DNA of 64,000 nt from Congeria kusceri (taxonomy: Eukaryota > Mollusca > Bivalvia > Myida > Dreissenidae): assembly GCA_027627225.1 (NCBI GenBank), contig CM051025.1:50714181-50778180 (forward strand). Reading direction: 5' to 3'. The position numbers were made by a program, and so were the translations under genes. Below, piece by piece: positions 9,601 to 63,890 of this stretch (its first letter is position 1; each line of letters opens with the position of its first letter). The notes beneath the pieces are model-generated. The model searched no databases. It was not told where the DNA came from and saw only the letters and a list, made by a program, of their open reading frames with translations.

Positions 9601-12600
9601 ACGTATAGAGACATTTATGACAATGGATTAAGGATTTTGATTTGAAGAGTAACATTTTACATACGCACCTGCCTGGAAAATGAACGGGTTTTTGTTGAAA
9701 TGGTTACGATCTATATTTGTTACAGCCAAAACTACGTCAAGTATCGATATATTCCGTATTTCGTCTATTTCGGTTTTGGTGAATAATCTGTAAAACACAT
9801 AGAATAATGATTAATTATGTTTTCAATGTTTTTTACTTGCCTAGCACGATCTATATGCATTTACTTATAGCGCGAAAATGGTTGTCTTTTTAAATTATGA
9901 GTTCAGCAATCCAATGTTTGTCCTGTTTTTCGAAAGCAACACCCTACACATAAGTGTGATTAAAAGCGACTTGTTCACAGATTTTTGTCACCCAATACAC
10001 AAGTGCGTTTAAAGGGGACTTGTTCACAGATTTTTGTCACCCAATACACAAGTGCGTTTAAAGGGGACTTGTTCACAGATTTTTGTCACCCAATACACAA
10101 GTGCGTTTAAAGGGGACTTGTTCACAGATTTTTGTCACCCAATACACAAGTGCGTTTAAAGGGGACTTGTTCACAGATTTTTGTCACCCAATACACAAGT
10201 GCGTTTAAAGGGGACTTGTTCACAGATTTTTGTCACCCAATACACAAGTGCGTTTAAAGGGGACTTGTTCACATATTTGTGTCACCCAATACACAAGTGC
10301 GTTTAAAGGGGACTTGTTCACAGATTTTTGTCACCGAATACACAAGTGCGTTTAAAGGGGACTTGTTCACATATTTGTGTCACCCAATACACAAGTGCGT
10401 TTAAAGGGGACTTGTTCACAGATTTTTGTCACCCGATACACAAGTGCGTTTTAAATGGACTTGTTCACAGATTTTTTTCACACAATACACAAGTGCGCTT
10501 TAAAGGGACATGATCACAGATTTGTGTCACCCAATACACAAGTGCGCGTTAAAGGGACTTGATCACAGATTTGTGTCACCCAATACACAAGTGCGCTTTA
10601 AAGGGACATGATCACATATTTGTTTCACCCAATACACAAGTGCGCTTAAAAGGGACTTGATCACATATTTTGTCACCCACTACACAAATGCGCTTTAATG
10701 GGACTTGATCACAGATATTTGTCACCCAATACACAAGTAGGCTTTAAAGGGACTTGATCACAGATATTGGTCACCCAATTAAACAAGTGCGTTTTAAATG
10801 ACTTGTTCACATATTTTTGTGCGTTTGAAAGGGACTTATTCACAAATATTTGTCACCCAATACACAAGTGCGCTTAAAAGGGACTTGTTCACAGATTGTT
10901 GTCACCCAAAGTGCGCTGTAAAGGGACTTGTTCACAGATTTTTGTCACCCAATAAACAAGTGCGCTTTAATTGGACTTGATCACATATATTTGTCACCCA
11001 ATACACAAGTGCGCTTTAAAGGGACTTGATCACAGATATTTGTCACCCAATACACAAGTGCGCTTTAAAGGAACTTGATCACAGATATTTGTCACCCAAT
11101 ACACAAGTGCGTTTTAAAGGGAATTGTTCACAGATTTTTGTCCGCTTTTTAAATATGCCAGTAAACGTCTTCACATGACAAATGAAAGCATCTGAACAAA
11201 AGAGCTTAAGTACTATAACAATAAAGGCATACAAAAAGAAAAAAAAAATGTTGCTCACGCCAGTATTCAAACCTCAGGCCTCCGGATCAAATGTCTAACG
11301 CGCTAACCTCTCGGCCTCAAGTGTGATTCAAGTGTTTTCAACAATAGCAACGAAAACAACAGAAGTCAGTAGTGGTATTTTGCTCTATTGTTTATAAGTA
11401 TTCTTTTATTTTTGGAATCTGTGACAACAAAGTTTGAAAATTGTCAATTCGTAAATCCGTGAACACGTCCATTTCAAAGCTGTTTACTTAACACAATAAA
11501 CTCATAAATTTAGGTCGTCTTACCCATTTTTCTCGTTTTCAAACCAGAACCTATCGCCGTCTCGGATGCGCATGAACTGATCGCGCACGATTGTCCGAAA
11601 GAGCTCCCCGAGGCCGTCGGGGGTAGTCTCCAGGAGGCCGCCACTGAACAAGTCCAGATTGTCGGGAGCAGATGTGTTCCCGTACAGCATCTTGAGGTTT
11701 GCTATTGGCTGAAAATAATATTGGATTTACATTGGGTATGCAGAGATAATAAAACATTATATATTATACAACATACGCAGTATTAGTGTGTGTAGCGTGG
11801 CGCGCGACGTTGATCCTTATATTACACTAACCTCAGAAAACGATAAGCTATCAATTATGTTCTGATTTTATTACCTTTTATTATAACATTCAAAGTACTG
11901 AAGAATGTGCCGGAATAAGATATCTCATATCACTATCTTTTTTGCTTCGCATTACAGAGTACATTATATGTAAATACAATGTACTGTCGCGAATGTGACG
12001 TTTCTTAATTAGTTAGAAGTTATGTCGAAAGGTATACGTACACCGCTCATGTACATTCCATTTGGGTACAAATGCTCGTCTGCGAATTGCGGATCTTTCT
12101 CTGAGATGTTATACGTGTTAATTTCCTCCCAGGAAGCCCTCCTTTTCAGTCCATACGCCTCGCGCACGCTGTTGTAATCCGGAAGCCCATGGTCACGTGC
12201 TCTCTGAATATTTATAGCGATGAGGTCGCGGCGGGAAAACTCTAGTGGACCAAACAGGTGCTCTGTTAGGATGCAGAAAACGTCATTTAGGTCATACGAT
12301 GTAACCTTAAGATAAACAACATTTTGTTTAATAAATATTAACATTGGAACGAATGATGAACATTGTCACGTACATGTCGTATGTCCAATTCAAAAGCTGC
12401 ATAACCGATATCCATTTTCTCAGAAATCGCCTATAAACTTTATAATCGATTTGTTAAAATAAGTTTACGTTCAGTTCATAAAAATAAAAAATAAACTTTA
12501 TGTAAATATAATTTTAATATAAAAGTGTGTCAACCAAAGCCTTATTCTTCCACTGTGTAATCCATTCTTTGTAAAGTGTGAAGTGTTACCTCGGAGGTCA

Positions 12601-40225: not shown

Positions 40226-40370
40226 CTGAAACAGGAGCAACCAAATTAAACATTGAAACAATTCTGATCGTTATACCGCATATTCAGTATCATGCAATGC
40301 AGTGATAGGACTTCATTGTATAACATTAATCAAATAGACAATCATATAAATATTTATATGAACAAGAAAT

Positions 40371-44058: not shown

Positions 44059-47000
44059 TTTTTTTTTTTTTTTTTTTGTGGTTTGTAACCTTTATTTCCA
44101 TCATAGTTTGTAAAATATACATTATATGCAAGTCATACAGAGTACAAAGCACATTATATGCAAGTCATACAGCGTAAAAAACATTATATGCAAGCAGCGT
44201 ATAAAATATACATATAGAACGTACAAATATTATACGAATGTTGGTCTAGATTCAGAAACAACATGAAATTGTGAATGCCCATATTATTTTTAAATTATTT
44301 TTTTCAATGCGCAGATTTACGGTATAAAAACAAATTAAAGTTACATTTGTTTTATAGTTATCTACATTTCTTTAACCAAGTCCCTATAGGCTTTGTTCAC
44401 AAAAATTACTTATTAGTGACCATCTTTTTGCTTCAATTTCCGAGAGTTTATAGCTAGTATTAATTGAACAATAAAAATCTAAGCTATTAGTGAGGCCTTT
44501 AAAACTTGGTGTAATGTTATTTCTTCTGCATGTAAAAATATATCTCTTAATCTCTAGACATAGAAGGGTAAGATCCTTAGTTGCAATTGAAGAACCACCT
44601 AATACAAAAGTTTGGCAGTCTATTTCTGTCGTATTAAATAAAGTTCTATTATTTGCAAGGATTTCGTTTACTTTTTTAATTAGATCTTTTGTTTTTTCAC
44701 AGTTCCAGAATAGATGCATAACAGTTTCTTCGCTTTGTTGGCAGAAGCTACATAGATTATTATTGACTATTTTCATTTTGTATAATAAGGAATTTGTACC
44801 TAAAATAGTGTAGATAATTCTAACTTGAAACCATTGTAAGTAACTATCTCTTGTTATGTTAAATAGTGTTTTAAAAATACATTTCCAGTCTTCGTCCGAG
44901 AGAGTAAATACGTCCCATTTTGTTTTGCATAAAGTTGTTTTAACATTTTGATTAAAACAATTATAAATAAACCTATCTTTACTTTCGTAGCAAATAATAT
45001 ATTTCGCATAACACGATAGAGATGGACCAAACGTGAGATGGTCGTTTTTGTTAAAATGTATATTCATTTTATTAATAAACGTTTTTACTGATTTTATAAG
45101 ACCTTCGTAATTCATAAAATTCATGCATGTTCCCGTAATAGTTTCTATCTGTTTTTTCGTTAAGAAAGTGTTAGAATCAATAAGTATATCTCTCACAAAT
45201 CGTATTCCTTTCTCGTAAAGTGATTTGAGAAAAATAGGTTCATTACCAATTTTAAAATTTGTGTTATAAAATAGAGGCATATTTAGAATATCGTCCATAT
45301 GATAAATGTTTAACACATCAAGCAACTGTTCATAGTTTGTAAAAACCTCTAACCAAAAATCATTGTTTATTTTTTTCTTGACATTGGAAATGTATAGTTT
45401 TCCGGTATTAAAAAATTTGCCTATGTCGAACATAGATCTTACAAGTATTGCGCAATTACTATCGCAACATGTATACAATTTTCGTATCCAAGAAAGTTTG
45501 ATTTTTTTACAATATGCATAGATATCTATCATTTGCAAACCACCTTTCTCATAGCTTTGAGTAATTGTAGAACTTCTTATTTTATACGGTGCATCTTCCC
45601 AAACAAAATCCATCAATAATTTGTTCAATTTATGAAGAATATCTGTCTTTGGTGTAGGTAAAGCAAACAAACAATGAGTGAATAATGGTAGTAAAAGTGA
45701 TTTTATGACAGTTATTCTGCCAATTGGTGTAAGGTTTCTCTTTTTCCAGTGGTTAATAATATTGTTAGCTTTAATAAATTTATCAGAAAAATTTTAATCG
45801 ATCATACTTTTAAGGTCAACATCGAACATGATTCCTAATAATTTAAATCTAGTGGTTCCCCATGTAAGTTTGTATTTTGTTTTAATAGCTCTAGTACTAT
45901 ATTTTAAAGATCCGATCCATATAACGTTAGTTTTATCAAAATTCACTTTAAGACCTGAAAACAATGCAAAGTCGTCGAGCATTTCAAGCGCCGAATTTAA
46001 AGAATTTTCTGAACCATCTAGTAACAGAGAAGTGTCATCCGCAAATTGAGAAATCTTGTATTCAACGCCATTTATTTGTATACCCTTTATATTTTTACAA
46101 CATTTAATCTTAATTGCTAATACTTCTGCACATAATATAAATATATACGGTAAAATGGGGTCTCCCTGTCTACAACCGCGGCCTATTGAGAAGCTGTCAG
46201 ATAAGAAGCCGTTCAACTGAACTGATGTTTGAGTGTTTTTGAGAAAAATGTTAATCCAACGTTTAAAACTTGGCCCGAAATTAAATAAATTAAGTGTTTG
46301 TTCAATGCAGTTAAAAGATAAAGTATCGAAAGCCTTCTCGAAATCAATCAACATAATTAACCCAGGAATTTTGTTTTGTTCTGTATAATTCAGTATGTCA
46401 TTTAGCAGACGTGTGTTTTCTCCTATAAACCGCCCTGAGACAAAACCCGTTTGATCCCTTGAAATAAGACTGGTTAAGTGTGGTTTTATTCTATTTGCTA
46501 TTGAGCCAGATGCTATTTTATAGACTGTATTAAGCAGTGTGATAGGTCTCCAGTTTTTAAGGAAATGTCTCGGCTTGTTTTCTTTTGGAATACATGTAAT
46601 AATACCCTGTTTTTGAGTTATAGAAAAGTTATTATTAATGTACGCAAAATTTATACTTCTTAAAACAAAATGTCCAATTTTATTCCAGAAAACTTTAAAG
46701 AAATTTGTAGAGAAGCCATCTGACCCGGGACTTTTATCATTTTCCATATTTTTGAGAGTTCTAGTTATTTCTTCAAATTTTAATAATCCTTCAATTTCGA
46801 GTGATTGGGAGACATTTAATTTATTTACATGAATGGTTTGCAAGTCATTAAGTGTGAAGTCAGATGAGACTTCAACTTTTTTATACAATTTTTTTATAGA
46901 ATTCAGCCGTTTCCTTTAAAATATCATTTTGATTGTTAATAACCGTGCCATCGTCTTTTTGAATAAATGGTATATTTTTTTTGTATAATGTTGCTTTTCT

Positions 47001-48200
47001 AAAGAGCAAAAATAACTGGTTGTTTTCTCTCCTTGTTCTATCCACTGGCCTTTCGACCTTATGATGTGACCTTTTAGTTTTGTGTTTCTAATATTATCAA
47101 GCTCTATATTTAACTGTACAAGAGTTTCTTTGTTAGATTCGTTTAGATTTTGTTCAATTTCTTCGATTTCCTTTAATAATCTTTGCTCGTTTGAAATACT
47201 TAATTTGTTTCTATAACTTGCATAAGCAATAGTTTTTCCTCTTATTTCCATTAATAAAGTTTCTAAAAAGAGTTGGTCATTTATTGTAAACAAAAGCTCA
47301 CTGCTACATATATTGTGAATATTTTCTAAATTGTAGACTGGCAAGCAATATTGTAATTTAATTTCTTCAATTTTATTATTTATACAATTTAAGTATTCAA
47401 TGTCGTGTAAAAGAGAATTATTAAATTTCCACAACCCTTTCGCGTGCTCAATTTTGTTGAATTCAAATGAAATATCTAAAATTGAGTGATCTGATTTAAT
47501 ACTAGGTTTTATATTGGATGATTTTAAGAAGTTACCCATATTTTGGGTAGTCAAAAAGAAATCTAATCTTGCTTGTTGTAGAGGATTGGTACGCCTCCAT
47601 GTGTATCTAATTTTATCTTCATGCAATGCCCTAAAAGTATCAATTAAATTTCTCTTAGAATAATATTTCTTGCATTTATATTATAGTTGTTGGATTTATA
47701 ATTACTATAATCTAATTTGTTATCAAGGACAAGGTTAAAATCACCACAAATTACGTAATCCTCATTTCTAAAATCATCAATAGTATTAAACACATCCTTA
47801 TAAAATTGTGGATTATCTGAATTAGGGCCATAGACGGTAATTAATGAGAAGTGCATTTCCGCATATGTAATATCTAATGCCAACAAGTTACCAATAATAT
47901 CTTTTTAATGTTATGAACTTTTACATCAATGTTATTTTTTACTAATATTGCACATCCTCTCGCATTTGATTTCCCATAACTTATATAGCATTGCCCCTCC
48001 CCCAAGAAGAATACACCTCCTTTTCCAGTTTTTGTGGCCAATGTACATCTTGTAAACAAAATACATTAGAATCAGTTTCTCTCAAAAAATTTAAAACATC
48101 AGTTCTCTTATTTTTACAGTATAGGCCTCGGCAGTTAAGAGATGCAATCTTTATAGATGTCATATTGTATTGACATTAAAATACAACACATCTGCTTGCA
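44059..48200 (-). mobile_element. L1/Tx1-type LINE retrotransposon, sense to DUOX
   Basis: Minus-strand non-LTR element: apurinic-endonuclease domain, reverse transcriptase, C-terminal zinc-knuckle-like CxxC..H..C, then a 3' UTR and a 19-nt A tail (T run at 44059-44077). The 3' UTR has three ~31-bp repeats with CATTATATGCAAG (44119-44200). No ORF1 is visible upstream, so it is probably 5'-truncated near 48200. It lies in the intron before DUOX exon 1. Confidence 0.9.
44384..48163 (-). pseudogene. LINE ORF2 (endonuclease-reverse transcriptase), broken
   Basis: N-terminal endonuclease motifs IASLNCRGL, LQDVHW, VYGPN, GDFNLVLD and SDHSILDI; RT motifs KSPGSDGF, WRPITLLN, GFVSGRFIGENTRL, LIDFEKAFDT, GCRQGDP and FADDTSLL (catalytic Asp pair present); C-terminal CSFCQQSEETVMHLFWNC. 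Broken by five single-base frameshifts in homopolymers (about 48000, 47904, 47650, 46978, 46892) and one in-frame TAA at 45794-45796. Remaining frames: 44384-45670, 45794-46888, 46916-47626, 47644-47886, 47874-48163. In this family it would nick target DNA and copy its RNA in place. Confidence 0.9.
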
Positions 48201-49387: not shown

Positions 49388-50213
49388 TAATTATGTATGT
49401 CTGATCGTGTCGCTTAATCATCAATGGCATCCGGACGGGGGGTTTACCTATCAGTAAAATATGTATATAAATATTTATGAACCAGGAAGGAACGGGTGTT
49501 GGGTTAGTGACGTGTCGCAGGTAAATGTTGACCAAAGTTCTTCTGAAATATTTTTCAATTTTCGGAAATTTAGATAACGTTGATCGATGATTTTTGGTGA
49601 AACGATAGTAGTTCAATATGTTAGCTAATGAAAGATTCGTGGCCTGGACTGACATGTAGTAAGTCATAGGTTTACGGTAATTAATACTGACTGCAGTGTT
49701 TGACAATGTGGAAACTATGACAAGCGAAACACTTACTTGATGTCAATATCGTTTTTTTTTATCAGATGACAATCATGAAATAAAAGTATACTACGTGGCC
49801 ATGCGATAATAGGACGATGACACTCTCAAAAGATAGCATAGCAGGATCAGACCTACTGAAATGTCTTGTTCTACTTTCAGCTAGAAATAATCCCGGAAAC
49901 TAATAGCGAATGGTTGACGAGGAATGAAAACATTTCGTTGATTTACACCTTTATTTGTGTTTACGTTTATGACAGAAACTAAGTTATGTGATGGAGTTGG
50001 TGATATAAACAAACACATGAAGTATTCCTGCAAGTGCCACCACAAGTTGATATCATTCCCTGCAACTGTGCGACTACATCAGTTTTTAATATAGCTTTTA
50101 TTTTAATGAATAAAACATCGGCATTAAGGCCTTGCGGGGTGATATGCCTCATATGAGAATATTTCCGTATGAGATCAGCCGGGAATGTTCGTTCGGGGGA
50201 CGAGTGGACTTGT
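49388..50213. repeat. Source-like copy of the 60374-60646 spacer
   Basis: 49388-49545 and 50087-50213 match the two halves of the spacer between the promoter copies almost exactly (landmarks CATCCGGACGGGGGGTTTAC, AAGGCCTTGCGGGGTGATAT). On the minus strand 50213 follows GCCTTGCAG and opens a frame of 78 codons; whether that is an exon is not clear. Confidence 0.75.
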
Positions 50214-51587
50214 ACCATCTGCAAGGCTTCAAATATCTGTTTGTATGTCCGTGGTGAAATTCCGCAAATGTTTCATGCTTAATGCTAGCATTGAAATCGG
50301 AAATCTAGTATTTACTGTTTGACTTGATTAATTTAAGGACTTCAGTGATACAGTTTTGATTGTATTTTCGAAAAACAACAGTACAGTATTGACGAATGCA
50401 TTTACTAATTTAGAAGTATAAACTGTATTATCTATATCAATACCATAATGAAGTTATCGATAATAGTTTCATTAAAATTTATGTTACCGGTAATGGTCAT
50501 TCTGTGAAGGTATAATACAATGGGCATAATAAATAATAAGTAAACATGGTTGTTACCATTTGATTCAAAATCACAGGTGTGTGTGCGTGCTTTGTAATGC
50601 ATGATATGTAGTAGGAAGTACATGAACCTAAATATAAACAATGTGGAAAACTCCGGCTGCATCGGGAGGAAAGAACTTTTATTAGCAGCATGAAGTCCTT
50701 ACACTTTGATACAATATTGTCATTATTGGAATGGGTTTCGTTTAGAATGTCCCTTCCCTGTGAAGATGTCAAGAGCTCCACCCCCCGACCAGGTTCAACT
50801 AGGTTGTATATTGTTTAGACAAACACGTCACTTATCTAGCCCACGTCTTCCGGGATTTTTACCAATACTTGAACTGTTCATGGAACCATAGCAACGTCGA
50901 ACATATTCTCAGTGTAATATTTTAATGCAATATGTTTGTTTAGGAAATAAACACATTGACATTGTCTTTACAATGTGCAAAGCATGTTTATATAATTTTA
51001 TGGAGGTCATTTAAAATGTAATTGAGTGCATCCATCTATACATTATGGAATAATATATGCTAATGAAAAATCCAGATTAAAAGATGATGACAAAATTATA
51101 TTTAACCGGCTCTCAGAAGACAAATCTTGCTGGTGCAGACATTCAGTCAATTGGTCGATTGATCGATCAGTCACTCATTTACTTGCTAGACTGACCGACT
51201 ACTCGAATAGACAAACCAGTCAATCTATTGACCTGTATTCAAAACCCTGATAAATAAGGATAATGTTTGGACGATGAGTATGCTTACTCATTACTAAATT
51301 AACCAGCACACTAGGAGTACATGTGTACGATAAGATAGCGTGCATCATTAATCAGATAATATCACGAGTATATGTGAAATGTATACACGTGACAATCCAA
51401 TCCCCAGCTAATTTACGTGCATACATATTTATTTATGCAAGTCTCATCCAGGCATATGTGCACATTGTAAACTGTGACATATCAATTTAAACAATAAACG
51501 AAGCAAAGTGTCTATTAAATCATTATATCATATTTCAGATAGTTTCTTTGTTCTGCAGTATTCAATAACTGTGATATCAGAACAGAA

Positions 51588-52770
51588 ACTGGTGGGCGGA
51601 GCCTAATATGCAAGCTTATCATGCAATACGTAGTGTGCACTGTATTGAAAGTTACGTAGTTTTAATTTATACGCACGGTACGTATTGCACGGTAAGCTTC
51701 CACATTCGACAGCGCTAAATATGGAAGCATGTCAGACATCACGTGACGTCTAGGAACTGCCCATTGGGATCGGCATTGTAGATAATTGCGATGTGATTGG
51801 TAAATATGGTATAAAACACTTGTAGCATCCGTTGACCCCAATATGTTAATTATTTACTCTCGCCCTGCGGGCCCGTTAAATAACTAACATATTTCGGTCA
51901 AAGTTTGCTACAACTATTGCACATCCACCTTTGCATTATGTTTGGTGTTCTGTAGCCTAAATCAACGGTAGGCTCGTCTTATTTATACGTACTGGTATTG
52001 GCAGTCTATACACACAGGATGACGTCACTCGTCTAACACGTCAGTCTATATACATAGTTGTACATCATGTTATATTTCATTCCCGCAATTGCTATCTGTC
52101 AAACAAGTGTTGCCCGTATAGTCCTATCATACATCTTGGCGAGTGAATAATGCTATCAATGTGTTCGTTTTTAAGGTATTCAGCGTGCTGTCTCTTCCCC
52201 CCCCACACACACCCCCACACCCCCACCCCACCCCACCGCCACACCCCCCAACCGCCCAATCACCATTGTATTGTCCGATATCAATGTATATGCAATTTGC
52301 ATGCACAATATGTAAACAACCGCAACCCGCCAAAGGTAAACATTGCAATAATTTGGTAGCGATATGTCATTGCAACCTGGCGATTGTGCAGGCGGGCGAA
52401 TAAGTAATAGTTGTAGCCTACTTTGACCGCAATATGTTAGTTATTTAACGAGCCCGCAGGCCGAGATTAAATAATTAGCATATTGCGGTCAAAGCGTGCT
52501 ACAAGTGTTTTATACCATATTTACCGATCACATCGCAGAGTTCTACGATGCTGATCCCAATGGGCAGTTCCTAGACGTCACGTGATGTCTAACATGCTAG
52601 GCATGCGTGTCATTTCCAAATTTACCTCTGTCGCAATGTGTTCACTCAGTGCAATCGTTCAGTGCAATAAGTAGAGTGCGTATAAATTACAAATAAATTG
52701 CAATACACCACACGCTATTTATTGCACGATAAACTTGCATATTACGCTCAGTCCACCAGTCACCGTTCTG
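51588..52770. mobile_element. 1.2-kb foldback element
   Basis: Inverted arms of about 310-330 bp (landmarks ACATCACGTGACGTCTAGGA, CTGCCCATTGGGATC, GGTATAAAACACTTGTAG) with a roughly 530-bp loop that holds a C/A-rich microsatellite (52196-52258). Each arm also has a small palindrome TAATTATTTAA..GCCCGCAGG..TTAAATAA. 50214-51587 shows no supported gene. Confidence 0.8.
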
Positions 52771-53443
52771 ATGTTAGAGTTAATGAATACCGAAAAACAA
52801 AGAAAACTCTCTGGAATACGGTATAATTACGAATTAACGATCAATAACAATTTATCTACCAACGCAATGAGATCTTTGCTATGTACACGTAACATAATCT
52901 ATCCGATAATGATGTGCATTAAAAAAAAGTGGACTTCAAATTGTGCACTTTGCCCTACGACAGCGTGGAGAACAAGGGGAAGATATTTGAGATAGGTATT
53001 ATCAAACATATGTGGAGCATTTCGTAGTTAGATATCAGTCGACGTTTGCATTTTAGAACAGCGTGATTGCGTACAAGTGTAACCAAACAAACTTGTAATG
53101 TTAATATGGTAAATAAACTTCATGCCATTATTAATTTGATTAACGATAAAACTGGTAAACCCGTTTATATTATAAATAGGAAAGATTCAGGAGAGCACCA
53201 AACAAACTTAACACATTTTGCAACATGACAATACAACTGACTGATGCATTTGATAAGGTTTGTAAATAGGACTGACAACTTAAAAAAGTGAGAAAAAATC
53301 AATATATAAAAGTGATATTTGTTGTCTAACTGAGAATGCACATTTCCAGGGCCTTGCCACGAACAGTTTAAACTCCTCATCAGCAATTGTTCATGGATTA
53401 ATTTCCATTCTCCGAACATCACATAAACATTGCAAGTATGTAC

Positions 53444-53698
53444 GAGGCGTGTCGTGGGAAAACCGAGCTTAATGCATGTGCGTAAAGTCTCGTCCCGGAT
53501 CAGCCTGTGCAGTCCGCACTGGCTAATCTAGAACGACATTTACCGCTTTCATGGAATTCTCTGTTTCAATGAAGTCTCTTCTAAACGTAACTCCGTTGTA
53601 GGCGGAAAGTGCCGTCCTGGATTAGCGGACTGCACAGTCTAATCCGGGACGACACTTTACGCACATGCATTAATCACGGTTTTCCAACGACGCGCCTC
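53444..53698. mobile_element. MITE family M, copy 5
   Basis: Full length, GAGGCGTGTCGTGGGAAAAC at the left and GACGCGCCTC at the right. The symmetric flanks TAC / GTA extend the palindrome. 52771-53443 shows nothing. Confidence 0.9.
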
Positions 53699-53764
53699 GT
53701 ATGCATTTCGAGGTTTAAGAGACCCCTCCGTGCAGAAGCTGCATTATGTGAGGACCCTACCTAA

Positions 53765-53990
53765 TTACAGAGACTCATCGAACGTTGTGACGAATTTTGA
53801 ATCGTAGCTGCAATTTCCAGTTATAAGTTTGGTGTGGTCTTGTGTTGTGGGGGAAACCGAACGAAAATCCCACCTGTCCGGTTTGGTGACCACCAACCAT
53901 ACATGCGTCGGGACCTGAAATTTATCCCCAGCCGCAGCGTTGAGAAGCGAGCGTGCCAACTACGGCGCTAGCCGGACAGCCGAAACATAG
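53765..53990 (-). mobile_element. tRNA-derived SINE
   Basis: Minus strand starts with a tRNA-like head (GGCTAGCGCCGTAGTTGGCA, A-box-like) and continues into a body with GGTTTCCCCCACAACACAAG, a motif I recall from bivalve and other metazoan SINEs. The 64-codon open frame across it is not a gene. Confidence 0.6.
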
Positions 53991-54876
53991 CAAGCTTTAC
54001 CGCGAGCTTTTTGTGCAAAACAGGTTAAACCGTGATATCCAAATGCAACAATTGGATAAAATTGCAGAATAATTTGCATATGATTTATGGATTTATGTCA
54101 TATCAATTAATAGCTTGCTGTTGGTAATGATCGATGTATCATCTAATTAACAAAGGACAATCAATTCGTTGGATCAATAAACAATTACTGAGTTTCAAAA
54201 CTCTGAACCTAATAGGTACAAATTATGTTACAAACTGAAACTAAATATCGTAAATAAAAGACAATGACAACGGTTGGTACGTATCGACATTAAATTTAGT
54301 TAGCTTAAATTGATGACTATAATTCAAATTAAAACGTGCGTGCTTATTAGACCTAAGGTAATCCATATAATTATATTAATGAAACTGTAACACAGAGTGT
54401 CATCTGTTGTTTAGGTTTGCTTGAACAGTCGGAACTAATACCCCCGTCATGTAGTCACGTTTTCGTCGCCTCGCTTGGCTACGTTTCGCAACTTGGCAGC
54501 TACGTAGTTCAATTCAGGGCCGTGGCCGTACCGCGCCTCAACATACATAGTTCAGGGTAATCTACAAATCTGAATTTGAACAAAATACTGCTACGTTAAA
54601 CCACAACGTACTTATACGTAGTGGTACGCGTAACACAACGTAGAACAACGTAGACTTTACGTAGCACAACGTGAACAGAACGAGAGTCCTGTCAATTTCT
54701 ACGTTATGCTGCGTTATTCACTACGTTTAAGCTACGATACACCACGCATCACTCTCGTTATATTACGCTTAGCTGTGAAGTGCGTTCTTCCACGCAACGC
54801 TACATAATGAAAACTTGTGGTACGATGTCAAATGTAATTGTAGCGTCGTGATAGCACAGTACAGTAACTTCGTAAG

Positions 54877-55725
54877 CCGCGGTCACACTGTCATGATTTT
54901 GGATACGATAGCCCACGATCGATCGTGTTAATCGTGATGAGTCGGGATGCACAGTTTCCCGATTGTATCGTCCTACGTATACCTACGTATACCAACGAGT
55001 CTAGGAGATTGCGAATATCAACGACACTTGTAGGTTACCGCAGCCGATTCACTACGGTTGCACCAAGATATGATACGATCTGTTACGGTTGTAATACGCT
55101 AGCGTCAGGTATACGCTACGGAAACAGACGATTATAGACGATTATTAATGTTTTTCCTACGAGTGTAGTAAAATTAATGAAGATTCATCACAATGAACTT
55201 ACTAGCAGCCAATAATTTTCAAGTTTTACTACGCTTCAGGGCGATTTGGCCATCATCAGGACATCACGATGCCGCGTGCATAATCGTGACATCAACGTAG
55301 GCAAATGTAGTGAGTACGTAGTAACATCCCGATAAACCCGTACAGGCAACGCGACCCAATCGTCGCGTTGTCGTGGTCCATCGTGTATATTCGTGAGTAC
55401 ATGTAGTCATGATAGTTGTCGCTAAAGATCCTACTGGAATCGTAACTGAACCGTAGGACAAGCGTAGAAATCCGTACCATATACGTAGCAAAAACGTACC
55501 ATAACGTAGTACAGTCTTATGATACATATGTCATAAAATCAGTCACGATTAATTACGATTAAACACGAAAGGCTATGATGGTTGTAAGAATGAGCCAGAT
55601 TGAGATACGATGGCACTAGGATTGCCCTACGTTTTGGAACAATCGTGGCGGTGCTACGATACGCCACAAGATTTTGTAAAGTGTGGGCAATCGTATCCAA
55701 AAGCATTACAGTATTACCGAAGCCT
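54877..55725. mobile_element. CGTA-rich foldback element, copy 1
   Basis: Left end AAGCCGCGGTCACACTGTCA, right end its diverged inverse near 55690-55725. The interior is unusually rich in TACGAT/CGTAG words. Confidence 0.55.
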
Positions 55726-55760
55726 TAAGCTTCGGTCAAACTGTCACAATTTTGGTTTAA

Positions 55761-56159
55761 GCCTCGGTCACACAGTCACGATGTTGGCTACGATTGCCCG
55801 AGATTGATCGTGGACGTGTTAATCGTGATGAGTCGGGATGCACATTGTCCCGATTGCATCTTCTTACGTATGCTGACGATTGTTGTAGGACAAGGCTAGG
55901 ATTATCAACGACACTTGTAGGTTTCCGCGGCCGATTCACCACGGTTTCACAAAGATATCTTACGATGTGATACGCTAGCATCAGGTATAGGCTACGGTAA
56001 CAGAAGATTAGAGACGATTGTTAACGTTTAACTTAAGACTTTAGTACGATTAAGGAAGATTTTATCACGATGAACCTACGAGCAGCCAATAATTGGCGTC
56101 ACCAAGATTGAATCAATCGTGGGCAATCGTGGCCAAAATCGTGACAGTGTGACCGAGGC
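55761..56159. mobile_element. CGTA-rich foldback element, copy 2, TTTAA-flanked
   Basis: Ends GCCTCGGTCACAC / GTGTGACCGAGGC with inverted similarity over about 48 bp. Directly repeated TTTAA outside (55756-55760, 56160-56164), consistent with a TTAA-targeting DNA element. About 400 bp, no transposase. The surroundings (54430-54876, 56165-56530) share the same CGTAG-rich wording; 56540-58050 shows no gene. Confidence 0.75.
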
Positions 56160-58050
56160 TTTAACTACATCGAGGCGCAGCGTAGTAAAAATTGATGACA
56201 ACTTGGCAGAACGTGAGTGTCAAATACGTACTAAAACGGCGCGTAATAAAGTTACACTATGACAGGAGCATAAGGCATTTGACCTTTTTGCGAAGATTCG
56301 TTATGTAGCAATCACAGTTCGTTTAACACTACCTTGTCGCAAAATCTTGGTGAAGCGTGGTAAAGCGTGAGCACATACGTGCGGGCATCTGTGTGAATCT
56401 TTGAAGAATCTTGGGTGATCCTCATCGATCGGGAAGCGCTACGGTATTTTTTAACATGTTCAAAACCTTTGTGGCGTATCGTAGTGTCGCTACGATTTTT
56501 TTTCAGAACGTAGCTCAATCCTAGTGCAATCGTATCTGGCTTATTCCTATCGCCATCGAAAAAGCATTATTGGCCTTTCGTGTTTAATCGTTACTGTTTT
56601 TTATAACAATCAGATAAGTGAGCCAACAGATCAGCCTATATGTTTTAATGGAAGCGGACAGGCAAAATAATGCGACCGCTCAGATAAAATTTAATGGCGA
56701 ATGAAATAAAATCTATGAAGTCCTGATAACCTTTCTAAAAAAGGTAAACATTTAAATACAAACGGAAATTAATAATTATCAATCCTGTGTTATGCTAACA
56801 AAGTTTAAAAAGTCGGTATAAATCATTGCTTTCTTACGGCATGTACATAGGTGAAATGCTAAAGACTTCACTGTTTACAAAGCTCTTTTGTTAAACACAA
56901 TATCTTTACTGGTAATTGGCGACGGTAAAATCAGATTTAATGTAAATTTAATGGCGAATGAAAAATATATTGTTGAAAATGGGGATATATCTTGTTATTT
57001 AATATGTATCTATATTTCTGGAAATACCGTCGATATGCCCTTTTAACAACAATCCTAGATCTAGTCAATGTGAATACAGTATAGTTTGAAAAGGCAAAGG
57101 CAGGATTCACTATCTATGCAGTATGCACTATGCACTTTCTTTGAAAAAAATGTATTCGATGTTTTATTAAAATTGTATCAAACTTGTATATTTTGATATG
57201 CTTCTTGTTTTTATATAGACCTAAATAATATGCAAGTGACGCCCGTTAATTTATGCGAGAACATGTTTCTCATCACTGGATGAGCAAGCCAAAGATATGT
57301 ATATGACGTCACATGGGATGCAATCGTTCGTGGTGTGTAAATGTTGCTTTAACGTGCCCATTGGTGGTATTAAAGGTGCAAAGGCAAGGAAAAGAAAAGG
57401 TGACTATCAATAATTTGATGTTGATAACGAAATTTGAAGAGAGGTTCAATGGGCATTCTTTATTTATCAAAAGAACATCTACACATAGTTCTGCGATTGT
57501 ACTGATACTTATGGATTTAATCTGATTTTTATTTCTAATAAAACATGAATTATTTTATGATAAACCGTAAAGATCGATAGATCTTTTCAATTGGGTTGCT
57601 AAACTAGCAACAAAATTAAAATAACTTCAGGATGGATATAATAAACCAAGGTGTTATTTTATGCGTACACAGACCTAACCACATTCGTGATGATTTTATC
57701 AAGGTCGCATAATTCATTAAAATGAAACTGACATGTATTAAATTTCTTACTACTGGTATTAAATACTGTATTTGATGCGAGCCCAAATACAAACAAAACG
57801 TGGAAGGGTATATCCAGATGTTGCAAAACTCTTCATGCCAAACTAGACGCGCAGTAACGCGCAGTACTAGCATGTAAGAAATTTAAGATACCGAGTGGGT
57901 TGTTTTCAAAAATCCTTCCACTGTATGAATTTCAGTACAGAAAATGTAGAAACAGAAGCCACTCGTATACAGTACTTAATCTCAAGTCTACCGCTACGTC
58001 ACTGTTCAGCGAATTTGTGAAGTTATTGGTAAAGTTTACGAAATCATTTG

Positions 58051-58241
58051 AAGCGTGTCGTAGGAAAACCGGGCTTAATGCATGCGCGTCACGTGTCGTC
58101 CCGGATCAGCCTGTGCAGTCCGCACAGGCTGATCCAGGACGGCACTTTCCGCCTACAGTGGATTTATGTGGATTTATGTTTAGAAGAGACTTCCTTGAAA
58201 CAGAAATACCATAAAAGCGGAAAGTGCCGTGCGGACGGCGG
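58051..58241. mobile_element. MITE family M, copy 6 (truncated)
   Basis: Left end GAAGCGTGTCGTAGGAAAAC and first palindrome intact, right half lost after AAAGTGCCGTGCGGA. The edge of the 2.3-kb duplication (58074) falls inside this MITE. Confidence 0.85.
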
Positions 58242-59534
58242 AACATTATTTTGTTTCAATAATCAGGACTTAAAGTTGCATTTCAAAGCAATAACCGTGC
58301 TTTACGCATACGATGTTTCATAATATAGATTGAATAGTACATCTGAAACACAGTAATCAATTAATAGCAATGTACTAATATAAAAAACATTCTACAGAAG
58401 TTTCAAATTTCTTAAACAGTGAAGTATAAGCATTATACAAATGTCTTTACATTTCTATATCAAATTCTTGCTGATTTGTTTTATCAAATATAGCAATATG
58501 TATTATATTAGTTATTCTTTATTTAATGCGTATGTCTAAGTAAAGCGCATTTCTATCATTTAATATCATTTATGGTTCAATAGGAAACCAATTATTCAAT
58601 GGCCTAGTCCCTTTAAAAGTTAAGTTCAACAGTTCTTTGCGCTTTAGTTTTATTCTATATCTTTTCTTATACCACAATTAAAAATTACTTCAATCATTTA
58701 AAAATTAGTGGCAATTACTAAGAATGTTCTAATTTCTGTTTCTCCCATTCAAAGATTACAATTGCCCATCCTCCGTATTTACTTCCTGGTCAACAGCATT
58801 GGTGTGGGCGATTTCAAATAGTATTAGTATTTACTTACTGTATAGCGCAAAATTTCTGCGGTGCCAAATGCTGGCGTTTTTAAAGTGTTTTGAATTGGCG
58901 GTGTCACACAATGGCGCAATCGGCGATAACCGTCAAATTAAAACCATTGATAATAAATTTTTGCCTACTTTTGTTATGATGATAATGGCGAGATACTAGT
59001 GTGATACTAGTGTAGCAGCTCTGTTTTGACCCGGTTAGATAGTTTTCTATATGAATTACGTATTATAAGTTTCTTGGCTCAATGTGGCATTGAACATGTA
59101 TTGTGAATAAATGTTCAATGAATATAATACAGTGAAACAATATGTACTTTAAACCACGTTTATAGAAATGCAAAGAAAAACGCTATGCCATCTCGTGTAT
59201 ACCCGCAAGTGTATACATATTAATCTCGTATATAATTATAGGCTTACTCCAAGTGTTTAATGAACAATTGTTATTGCACTTGTAAAACAAAAGAACATAA
59301 CTGCTTTACGACAGTCAGTGTATAATGAATATCACCAACAATACAAGCGGATAACTGTGATTCGATCTTTGTGAACAAAACGCTTTCAAAAATTGTCAAC
59401 ATTGCGCTTATTTGCAAACACACTGTTTTCTTTAAAAAGAAAACAGTTTGCTGAAATTGAGCTGTGCGTAAAATATTAAAAGTTAGAAACATTTGACATA
59501 GAAATTAGGTTTAAATGATTGAAAATTGTCCTAC

Positions 59535-59625
59535 CAATGATCGCATGTTGAATACTGCAAAGCTGAAGAATCCATATCATCATCCTTTTACACCTGGTGG
59601 CCGTGCGGAATTTGTATAAAGTCAT
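59535..59625 (-). CDS. Candidate DUOX first coding exon, copy 1 (signal peptide)
   Basis: The first ATG after a well-formed core promoter (TATA 59696-59703, initiator A at 59673) opens a 30-codon ORF. It ends at donor GTAGGA with one base left over, which is the phase needed by the DUOX exon at 40139-40225. The peptide has a basic start (KFR, then RCKR), a hydrophobic stretch MMIWILQLCSI and a possible cleavage near IIGA once joined, as expected for a secreted-domain leader. The ATG has A at -3. The link to DUOX is inferred: the intron would be 19.3 kb and no transcript is available. It could instead be the first exon of an unrelated gene. Confidence 0.5.
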
Positions 59626-59670
59626 AGTTCCTGAAGTCCAATACCACAGAAGAAAAACGCTGGAGCAACA

Positions 59671-59703
59671 AGTGAGGCGCACTTTCAATCGAACGCTTTT
59701 ATA
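59671..59703 (-). promoter_or_regulatory. Core promoter, copy 1 (TATA box plus initiator)
   Basis: On the minus strand TATAAAAG occupies 59703-59696 and a TCACTT initiator-like motif follows with its A at 59673, 30 nt downstream of the first T. That is the canonical spacing for a TATA-driven RNA polymerase II start. The implied 5' UTR is 48 nt with no ATG before 59625. Confidence 0.5.
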
Positions 59704-60373
59704 GAGCGCCGATTGAGGAAGTCTTAAATAACCGGATTTTCACGCGTCAGGAGGGACAATACCCATTCCGCTTGGTAAACGGTTAAATGTAGTCTCCCAT
59801 TGATTCTCTAACTTAACATGCGAAAATCGCTAAATTTCGTGTACACATAGACCCGAACAATTCAGTGTTTATCATATAAGGGATGCCTGAGTTGATCGTT
59901 ATTAGATGATCAGGAAAAATAGTTGTATTAATTTTGAACTTAAAAATATATACAACTATATAAACTCGCGATTTGTTTACGACAAAAATGTACATAAGCA
60001 AACCCTTTCGCCTTTGTATATACTATTTTTAACTATTCGCTAAATAAATAATTAAGTAAAAAATGTATACATGTTATATGGAAACAATAGTGCAGTAAAA
60101 TAAAAGTTGTTCGGAAACACAGCGAATACGTAATTGCGAATACGTTTATCCAATCTAGCTCAATTACCATTACGAGTAGATATAATTGCGATGTAAGGTG
60201 CATACTCGAATTATATGGCCAACAAGTGTAAATTGTATAGTGCATAAGAATCACTTAATGCTGTAAGTGGATTTTTCCCGCACAGGAATAATGGTTATTG
60301 TATGGAAGTTATCACGTTATATTCATAACGCAGGTTTGATCCGACTGTCAATGTTATAACGAGTTGTGGTTTG

Positions 60374-60646
60374 ATAATTATGTATGTCTTAATCATCAAT
60401 GGCATCCGGACGGGGGGTTTACCTATCATTAAAATATGTATATAAATATTTATGAACCAGGAAGGAACGGGTGTTGGGTTAGTGACGTGTCGCAGGTAAA
60501 TGTTGACCACCGTTCTTCTGTTTTTAATATAGCTTTTATTTTAATGAATAAAACATCGGCATTAAGGCCTTGCGGGGTGATATGCCTCATATGAGAATAT
60601 TTCCGTATGAGATCAGCCGGGAATGTTCGTTCGGGGGACGAGTGGA
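60374..60646. repeat. Spacer between the two duplicates
   Basis: Consists of sequence matching 49388-49545 fused to sequence matching 50087-50213; about 540 bp present at 49.5-50.1 kb is missing here. Confidence 0.85.
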
Positions 60647-62113
60647 CTTAATGCATGCGCGTCAAGTGTCGTCCCGGATCAGCCTGTGCAGTCCGCACAG
60701 GCTGATCCAGGACGGCACTTTGCGCCTACAGTGGATTTATGTGGATTTATGTTTAGAAGAGACTTCCTTGAAACAGAAATACCATAAAAGCGGAAAGTGC
60801 CGTGCGGACTGCGGAACATTATTTTGTTTCAATAATCAGGACTTAAAGTTGCATTTCAAAGCAATAACCGTGCTTTACGCATACGATGTTTCATAATATA
60901 GATTGAATAGTACATCTGAAACACAGTAATCAATTAATAGCAATGTACTAATATAAAAAACATTCTACAGAAGTTTCAAATTTCTTAAACAGTGAAGTAT
61001 AAGCATTATACAAATGTCTTTACATTTCTATATCAAATTCTTGCTGATTTGTTTTATCAAATATAGCAATATGTATTATATTAGTTATTCTTTATTTAAT
61101 GCGTATGTCTAAGTAAAGCGCATTTCTATCATTTAATATCATTTATGGTTCAATAGGAAACCAATTATTCAATGGCCTAGTCCCTTTAAAAGTTAAGTTC
61201 AACAGTTCTTTGCGCTTTAGTTTTATTCTATATCTTTTCTTATACCACAATTAAAAATTACTTCAATCATTTAAAAATTAGTGGCAATTACTAAGAATGT
61301 TCTAATTTCTGTTTCTCCCATTCAAAGATTACAATTGCCCATCCTCCGTATTTACTTCCTGGTCAACAGCATTGGTGTGGGCGATTTCAAATAGTATTAG
61401 TATTTACTTACTGTATAGCGCAAAATTTCTGCGGTGCCAAATGCTGGCGTTTTTAAAGTGTTTTGAATTGGCGGTGTCACACAATGGCGCAATCGGCGAT
61501 AACCGTCAAATTAAAACCATTGATAATAAATTTTTGCCTACTTTTGTTATGATGATAATGGCGAGATACTAGTGTGATACTAGTGTAGCAGCTCTGTTTT
61601 GACCCGGTTAGATAGTTTTCTATATGAATTACGTATTATAAGTTTCTTGGCTCAATGTGGCATTGAACATGTATTGTGAATAAATGTTCAATGAATATAA
61701 TACAGTGAAACAATATGTACTTTAAACCACGTTTATAGAAATGCAAAGAAAAACGCTATGCCATCTCGTGTATGCTTATACCCGCAAGTGTATACATATT
61801 AATCTCGTATATACGTATAGGCTTACTCCAAGTGTTTAATGAACAATTGTTATTGCACTTGTAAAACAAAAGAACATAACTGCTTTACGACAGTCAGTGT
61901 ATAATGAATATCACAAACAATACAAGCGGATAACTGTGATTCGATCTTTGTGAACAAAACGCTTTCAAAAATTGTCAACATTGCGCTTATTTGCAAACAC
62001 ACTGTTTTCTTTAAAAAGAAAACAGTTTGCTGAAATTGAGCTGTGCGTAAAATATTAAAAGTTAGAAACATTTGACATAGAAATTAGGTTTAAATGATTG
62101 AAAATTGTCCTAC

Positions 62114-62204
62114 CTATGATCGCATGTTGAATACTGCAAAGCTGAAGAATCCATATCATCATCCTTTTACACCTGGTGGCCGTGCGGAATTTGTATAAAG
62201 TCAT
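62114..62204 (-). CDS. Candidate DUOX first coding exon, copy 2
   Basis: Second copy of the 59535-59625 exon, 2,579 bp away in the same orientation. ATG, hydrophobic stretch, donor and phase are all preserved. The only base I find different in the coding part is in the last full codon (ATT against ATA, both Ile), so the peptide is identical. Either copy could splice to 40225. Being farther upstream, this may be the ancestral or the derived promoter. The link to DUOX is inferred, as for copy 1. Confidence 0.45.
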
Positions 62205-62249
62205 AGTTCCTGAAGTCCAATACCACAGAAGAAAAACGCTGGAGCAACA

Positions 62250-62282
62250 AGTGAGGCGCACTTTCAATCGAACGCTTTTATA
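62250..62282 (-). promoter_or_regulatory. Core promoter, copy 2 (TATA box plus initiator)
   Basis: Identical TATAAAAG (62282-62275) and initiator (A at 62252) in the second copy of the 2.3-kb duplication, with the same 30-nt spacing and the same short leader before the ATG at 62204. Confidence 0.47.
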
Positions 62283-63126
62283 GAGCGCCGATTGAGGAAG
62301 TCTTAAATAACCGGATTTTCACGCGTCAGGAGGGACAATACCCATTCCGCTTGGTAAACGGTTAAATGTAGTCTCCCATTGATTCTCTAACTTAACATGC
62401 GAAAATCGCTAAATTTCGTGTACACATAGACCCGAACAATTCAGTGTTTATCATATAAGGGATGCCTGAGTTGATCGTTATTAGATGATCAGGAAAAATA
62501 GTTGTATTAATTTTGAACTTAAAAATATATACAACTATATAAACTCGCGATTTGTTTACGACAAAAATGTACATAAGCAAACCCTTTCGCCTTTGTATAT
62601 ACTATTTTTAACTATTCGCTAAATAAATAATTAAGTAAAAAATGTATACATGTTATATGGAAACAATAGTGCAGTAAAATTAAAGTTGTTCGGAAACACA
62701 GCGAATACGTAATTGCGAATACGTTTATCCAATCTAGCTCAATTACCATTACGAGTAGATATAATTGCGATGTAAGGTGCATACTCGAATTATATGACCA
62801 ACAAGTGTAAATTGTGTAGTGCATAAGAATCACTTAATGCTGTAAGTGGATTTTGCCCGCACAGGAATAATGGTTATTGTATGGAAGTTATCACGTTATA
62901 TTCATAACGCAGGTTTGATCCGACTGTCAATGTTATAACGAGTTGTGGTTTGGTTAATGCTGATGATACTAATGCTAATACCGGCGTGGTTGTTGTTGTT
63001 GTTGCGGTTGCTTTGCAACATCGTCATAACCAATAACAACCATGGATCAATTCTGTTTTGTGGTCATAAAGCATCATCACATATAGGATTTTCCAAGCAA
63101 TATGTTTTTATTTCTATATCTTGACT

Positions 63127-63890
63127 GCGTCACTAGTCACCATCGTCCAATAATATTCAGCGACAGCATCTGTCCGGTATATGGAAATGTAACCAGTCGC
63201 CATCGTCCAACACTGTTCAGCAATAGCATCTGTACCGGTATATGGAAATGTAACCAGTCGCCATCGTCCAACACTGTTCAGCAATAGCATCTGTACCGGT
63301 ATATGGAAATGTAACCAGTCGCCATCGTCCAACACTGTTCAGCAATAGCATCTGTACCGGTATATGGAAATGTAACCAGTCGCCATCGTCCAACACTGTT
63401 CAGGAATTGCATCTGTACCGGTATATGCAAATGTGACCAGTCGCCATCGTCCAACACTGTTCAGCAATAGCATCTGTACCGGTATATGGAAATGTAACCA
63501 GTCGCTATCATCCAATACTGTTCAAAAATAGCATCTGTACCGGTATATTACCGGTATATTAAAATGTAACCAGTCGCTATCGTCCAACACTGTTCAGCAA
63601 TAGCATCTGTACCGGTATATGGAAATGTAACCAGTCGCTATCATCCAATACTGTTCAAAAATAGCATCTGTACCGGTATATTAAAATGTAACCAGTCGCC
63701 ATCGTCCAATACTGTTCAGCAATAGCATCTGTACCGGTATATGGAAATGTAACCAGTCGCCATCGTCCAACACTGTTCAGCAATAGCATTTGCACCGGTA
63801 TACCGAAATGTAACCAGTCGCTGTCGTTTAATACTGTTCAACAATAACATTTGTATCTGTATCGGCATATCGAAATGTATTTCCATTCTA
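63127..63890. repeat. 61-bp tandem repeat (minisatellite), about 12 copies
   Basis: Period 61 bp (GTAACCAGTCGCCATCGTCC, then TGTACCGGTATATGGAAA). A few units carry a small extra ACCGGTATATT duplication. It starts about 0.85 kb upstream of promoter copy 2. Open frames on either strand are artefacts. Confidence 0.96.

Follow-up and report, generated by a model that had tools for sequence, protein, structure and literature searches.

A probable tandem duplication of the 5ʹ end of a DUOX gene in Congeria kusceri, with two putative promoters and first exons

A 2.3-kb segment carrying what appears to be the start of a dual oxidase gene (DUOX) is present in two direct copies in a 64,000-nt stretch of the genome of the bivalve Congeria kusceri (C2:50714181-50778180, called the window below, with positions counted from its first letter). 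We consider it probable from the sequence that this is a recent and real partial tandem duplication of the 5ʹ end of DUOX, which is read on the minus strand. The best reading of the arrangement is that one DUOX gene would possess two tandem promoters and first exons that encode the same protein.

The direct duplication of a 2.3-kb segment, claimed in a preliminary description of the window, was confirmed by blastn, which aligned 58071-60373 with 60644-62952 at 99.22% identity over 2309 aligned positions. The copies differ by 12 substitutions and one 6-bp gap, corresponding to a divergence of 0.52% (12/2303). The copy at 58071-60373 (copy 1) is proximal to the rest of the gene, and that at 60644-62952 (copy 2) is distal. 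Genome-wide searches were performed against the 1.55-Gb assembly of 1071 contigs. The search with 58074-60400 gave 6459 first-look candidates, of which 40 were scored, and 84 matches were listed, so that the repeat counts are lower bounds. Among the matches listed, only the two copies in the window were full-length. The remaining ones fell into two short dispersed repeats that do not cover exon 1, one at the unit's left edge (within query positions 1-159) and the other in its middle (within 757-974).

Each copy carries the TATA-like word TATAAAAG on the minus strand (59696-59703 in copy 1, 62275-62282 in copy 2), and the A of an initiator (Inr)-like site is located exactly 30 nt past its first T (59673 and 62252). 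The first ATG lies 48 nt beyond this A (59625 and 62204) and opens a coding part of 30 codons and one base, which ends at a phase-1 GT donor (G|GTAGGA) in both copies, the GT following directly after the last exon base at 59535 or 62114. The encoded peptide is MTLYKFRTATRCKRMMIWILQLCSIQHAII, followed by the first base of the next codon; it is hydrophobic and is a candidate signal peptide. We placed the proximal exon 1 at 59535-59673 (donor TTG|gtagga) and the distal one at 62114-62252 (donor TAG|gtagga), with the start of each set by the TATA-like and Inr-like sites only. All of these elements, as listed in the preliminary description, were seen at their positions in both copies, and its statement that the single coding difference is synonymous also held: the plus strand has A at 59536 and T at 62115, giving ATT or ATA. 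This sole exon substitution falls on position −2 of the donor (T in copy 1, A in copy 2), a placement in the splice donor that the preliminary description did not mention. The 428 bp directly above the putative start are identical between the copies.

The combination of a TATA-like word, an Inr-like site, a first ATG, a hydrophobic leader and a phase-1 GT was searched as a composite pattern. In 300 second-order Markov resamplings it turned up on average 0.1 times for every 30 kb of a single strand. In the real sequence it was observed three times in 164 kb (both strands), namely in the two copies and at one further, unrelated site to the left of the window, and did not occur in 50 kb around a DUOX paralog (both strands). 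The composite pattern alone is suggestive of a start; the case for exon 1 is firm because homology of the leader is added to it.

This homology was found with the DUOX2-like isoform X1 of Dreissena polymorpha (1568 aa, here P0182), whose N-terminus is MTLLRILQLCCIHHVIIGARGGNEEFELHPQDGW. Among the best 120 of 217 proteins matching a 255-residue query region, P0182 had the highest identity (90% over 94% of the region) and was second by E-value, behind a 2549-aa Pinctada protein with 64% identity. In the window, DUOX exon 2 (40139-40225, minus strand, phase 1 in and out) starts at 40225 after the acceptor tgtttcag and requires one base from exon 1. Joining the leader to exon 2 gives ...MIWILQLCSIQHAIIGARGGNEDFELHPQDGW, and across this junction MTLLRILQLCCIHHVIIG-ARGGNE of P0182 corresponds to ...MIWILQLCSIQHAIIG-ARGGNE of the window. 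The leaders align ungapped with 10 of 16 residues identical, and the junction residues are conserved (...IIGARGGNE). None of 20000 shuffles of the leader equalled the alignment score of 52, the best reaching 46. When the 18-aa leader of P0182 was searched by tblastn against the 164 kb, the top two matches were 59580-59533 and 62159-62112 (E 0.002 each), and the third of the best eight had an E-value of 0.99. With 13 residues more than the leader of P0182, the leader in the window is not conserved from its first ATG to the hydrophobic core. Exon 1 of DUOX most likely lies within 40.2-70.3 kb, because this interval is bounded by exon 2 (40225) and, to the right of the window, by two open reading frames (ORFs) with a Fapy_DNA_glyco N-terminal domain on the plus strand, whose starts are near 70.3 and 72.0 kb. 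These data support the assignment of the duplicated exon as exon 1 of DUOX. The link to DUOX had previously been drawn from phase, a leader-like sequence, strand and the lack of a competing gene, and it is now backed by the leader match in D. polymorpha.

The two copies are separated by a spacer of 270 bp (60374-60643), which is a rearranged copy of DNA from DUOX intron 1. Positions 60375-60520 correspond to 49388-49545 minus 12 bp, and 60517-60643 to 50079-50205, both in the same orientation as their source (blastn identities of 97.7% in 133 bp and 99.2% in 127 bp). The spacer lacks about 533 bp from the central part of the source (49388-50205), and other matches of the spacer in the genome were pieces of 36-45 bp only. 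Blastn and the reading of the junctions traced this DNA to DUOX intron 1, an origin absent from the preliminary description, and we rejected the idea that the spacer is unrelated filler.

Judging from the junctions, the sequence after 60373 would have been joined back to about 49388, and this new joint carries one unmatched A. The third junction links 50205 to 58071, with CTT common to both sides, and cuts the left-edge dispersed repeat, which in copy 1 extends as far left as about 58051. Because the repeat extends farther in copy 1 and is cut in copy 2, copy 1 retains the original left (intron-side) edge and copy 2 the original right (upstream) edge. For the same reason, the possibility that the 7.9 kb at 50206-58070 was inserted later into a short ancestral unit was rejected. 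As a separate observation, 58051-58240 belongs to an abundant short palindromic repeat (CAGCCTGTGC...GCACAGGCTG) found in many other places, with 61 matches in the 164 kb, counting the query itself and overlapping matches. About 8.4 kb in total are missing from the extra unit, comprising about 49546-50078 (~0.53 kb), 50206-58070 (~7.9 kb) and the 12 bp. An 11-kb tandem duplication followed by deletions of ~0.53 and 7.9 kb in the extra unit could have produced this structure, and so could a single event with serial template switches; both routes fit the junctions equally.

In the order of transcription, the proposed arrangement would be native upstream DNA, the distal promoter (P2) with exon 1b, a 1.5-kb piece of intron, the 270 bp of displaced intron-1 DNA, and the proximal promoter (P1) with exon 1a, followed by the rest of intron 1 and then exon 2 onward. 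In a transcript from either promoter, the donor of exon 1 would be joined to the acceptor of exon 2 at 40225, with an intron of 19309 or 21888 nt, and since the acceptor would be the same, both starts would yield the same pre-protein. Transcription from P2 would run through P1. P2 keeps the original upstream flank, including a 61-bp minisatellite of about 12 copies (63135-63862). A weak acceptor-like CTCCAG is present at 59659 in the 5ʹ untranslated region of exon 1a. Splicing of distal transcripts to this site would close the reading frame at CTA TGA and yield an unproductive isoform.

That both starts are active is a possibility to which we give somewhat less than an even chance. A comparable weight goes to the alternative that the duplication is real but only one promoter works, the other being a passive copy in intron 1 or in upstream DNA. 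P1 has 670 bp of original flank above its TATA and then meets the intron fragment, its donor is weaker than that of P2 (U1 duplex of −7.7 kcal/mol for copy 1 versus −9.4 for copy 2, so that P2 has the better match), and a distal transcript would have to be spliced past the proximal exon. The identical 428 bp above the putative starts argue against this alternative. As for the donors, the automatic DUOX model described below has 29 others, in which the −2 base is A in 17, T in 6, G in 5 and C in 1; because 12 of the 29 are thus also without A, both donors are plausible.

A less likely explanation, and the main rival to a real duplication, is a false duplication, a concern already raised in the preliminary description, in which a haplotype with the full intron (49388-60373) and a haplotype with the deletion were laid end to end by the assembler without being merged. 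Taken together, the spacer and copy 2 correspond to 49388-60373 with deletions, just as a deletion haplotype would. Moreover, the assembly of the quagga mussel is reported to have been 2.84 Gbp before purging and 1.61 Gbp after (PMC13015404), suggesting that genomes of this type often cause haplotype problems. Against this explanation, there is no N in the window, and 60373 is joined to 60374 without overlap, with only the unmatched A, so that an overlap-based assembler would have needed a read, or a chimeric read, across the joint. The divergence of 0.52% between the copies is also low beside the heterozygosity of 2.45% reported as an average for the quagga mussel (PMC13015404), a value that may not be that of the host or of this locus. 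At 2.45%, finding at most 12 differences in 2303 bp would have a probability of ~1e-12, given a Poisson model, a uniform rate and the quagga value. In addition, no further long copy of the unit was found among the matches listed.

That the exon does not belong to DUOX at all, but is a leader by chance or comes from another gene, is very improbable given the leader match in the D. polymorpha DUOX model, although candidates chosen by phase, donor and hydrophobicity are about equally numerous on the control strand and on this one.

Several points weigh against the reading of two starts on one DUOX gene. On the minus strand of 40226-124000, 13 leader-like candidates were obtained by phase, donor and hydrophobicity versus 11 on the control strand, and when a TATA-like word was required, the numbers were 3 and 3; we rejected phase, donor and hydrophobicity as proof of exon 1 for this reason. 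In the tblastn search with full-length P0182, residues 4-18 were drawn past the acceptor of exon 2 into the intron (40268-40140, together with exon 2), and exon 1 was not listed at E <0.5; only the separate leader query pointed to it. P0182 itself is a modelled protein (‘isoform X1’) rather than a complementary DNA. The TATA and Inr of both copies are consensus matches, and the donor strengths are estimates from a weight table and a U1 sequence. Finally, the spacer differs from its source at 4 of ~258 positions, a higher proportion than the 12 of 2303 between the copies (p 0.07), which could hint at conversion between the copies or at separate events. A read-through start at 40226-40268 (MFNLVAPVSG...) was considered as another beginning of the protein. 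It was rejected, since a canonical acceptor is located at 40226 and the two best matches of the leader query are the two exons 1, although the full-length query did run into 40226-40268.

The body of the gene was traced downstream on the minus strand. The automatic spliced model made by tblastn with P0182 has 31 exons and 1310 positions identical to the 1568-aa protein, and full-length P0182 was matched in 30 collinear segments up to residue 1568. Exons 3-18 of this model are located at 1696-28759 and exon 19 at 619-526, and the remaining exons lie left of the window to about −8628. The last junction of the automatic model is mis-set and out of frame; the terminal exon is in frame from a neighbouring acceptor. 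Joined exon pieces of the N-terminal peroxidase-like domain matched Dual oxidase 1 chain 7d3e_A in a phmmer search (E 1e-127), and an EF-hand region, a NOX membrane part and a FAD/NADPH part follow downstream in the same gene, labelled according to the Pfam accessions listed for P0182. Within its introns we observed a degenerate LINE (long interspersed nuclear element)-like ORF that contains RVT_1 and zf-RVT domains and is interrupted by two in-frame stops (44384-47680, minus strand, in intron 1) and a 49-bp minisatellite array (9940-11142).

In vertebrates, DUOX and DUOXA form a head-to-head pair with a shared promoter. A DuoxA gene beside DUOX was not found here: the 12 PF10204 matches listed were on C4, C7 and C8, and none was on C2, so DUOXA was rejected as a head-to-head partner. 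On C7, a DUOX-protein match lies within 60 kb of DuoxA matches (58295945-58296166 and 58335811-58347330). A second DUOX-like gene is located at C2:9735016-9742605, and one of its exons resembles by eye another D. polymorpha protein, P0224. The two Fapy_DNA_glyco ORFs beside the DUOX start (70329-70787 and 71981-72514, plus strand) share 72.6% DNA identity over 457 aligned positions and are 1.7 kb apart; they may be tandem genes or alternative exons.

In PGM1, the first exons encode different protein ends, whereas the DUOX copies encode the same leader. The overall structure is of the same kind, as two complete first-exon copies with promoter-like sequence are found upstream of one downstream exon set in DUOX, and PGM1 is described as having two first exons with their own promoters and one downstream exon set; the PGM1 duplication is, however, dated to more than 420 My (PMC7101342), while the DUOX copies are 99% identical. 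In wheat Vrn-A1a, a promoter region, supposedly including the first exon, is duplicated, and the copies differ by deletions; this is a flowering gene of a plant whose promoter carries a mobile-element insertion (PMC3095301), in contrast to an animal oxidase with an intron-derived spacer. PGM1 and Vrn-A1a were the comparable duplications of promoter and first exon found in a limited literature search, and a search for DUOX with an alternative promoter and first exon matched work on ACE2 only. UGT1 and the clustered protocadherins are also described with tandem first exons and common downstream exons, each UGT1 exon having a promoter, but their first exons vary. Different protein ends, which define variable first exons, were not found in DUOX, where the single difference in the exon leaves the protein unchanged. 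With regard to formation, the short copied pieces that stand in order at the duplication junction, with CTT shared at one joint, resemble templated insertions of the fork stalling and template switching (FoSTeS) type in complex rearrangements (PMC5120786, PMC6258378). The case of DUOX differs in being an older germline state in a mollusc, and a two-step duplication and deletion fits it equally well. The doubled start of DUOX would add a further member to a class of rearrangements that is already known.

DUOX makes hydrogen peroxide at epithelial surfaces. At 0.5% divergence, the duplication is young enough for its breakpoints to be resolved to the base, and the two starts could be distinguished in RNA by the one base at the donor (59536/62115). 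It is conceivable, though rather improbable in our estimate, that a young and perhaps polymorphic duplication, with tandem starts that differ in upstream DNA and donor strength, raises or doubly controls epithelial peroxide with the protein unchanged. Because of the peroxide that DUOX makes, a natural change in the number of its promoters in a mussel would be testable for dosage, and also for presence or absence among individuals.

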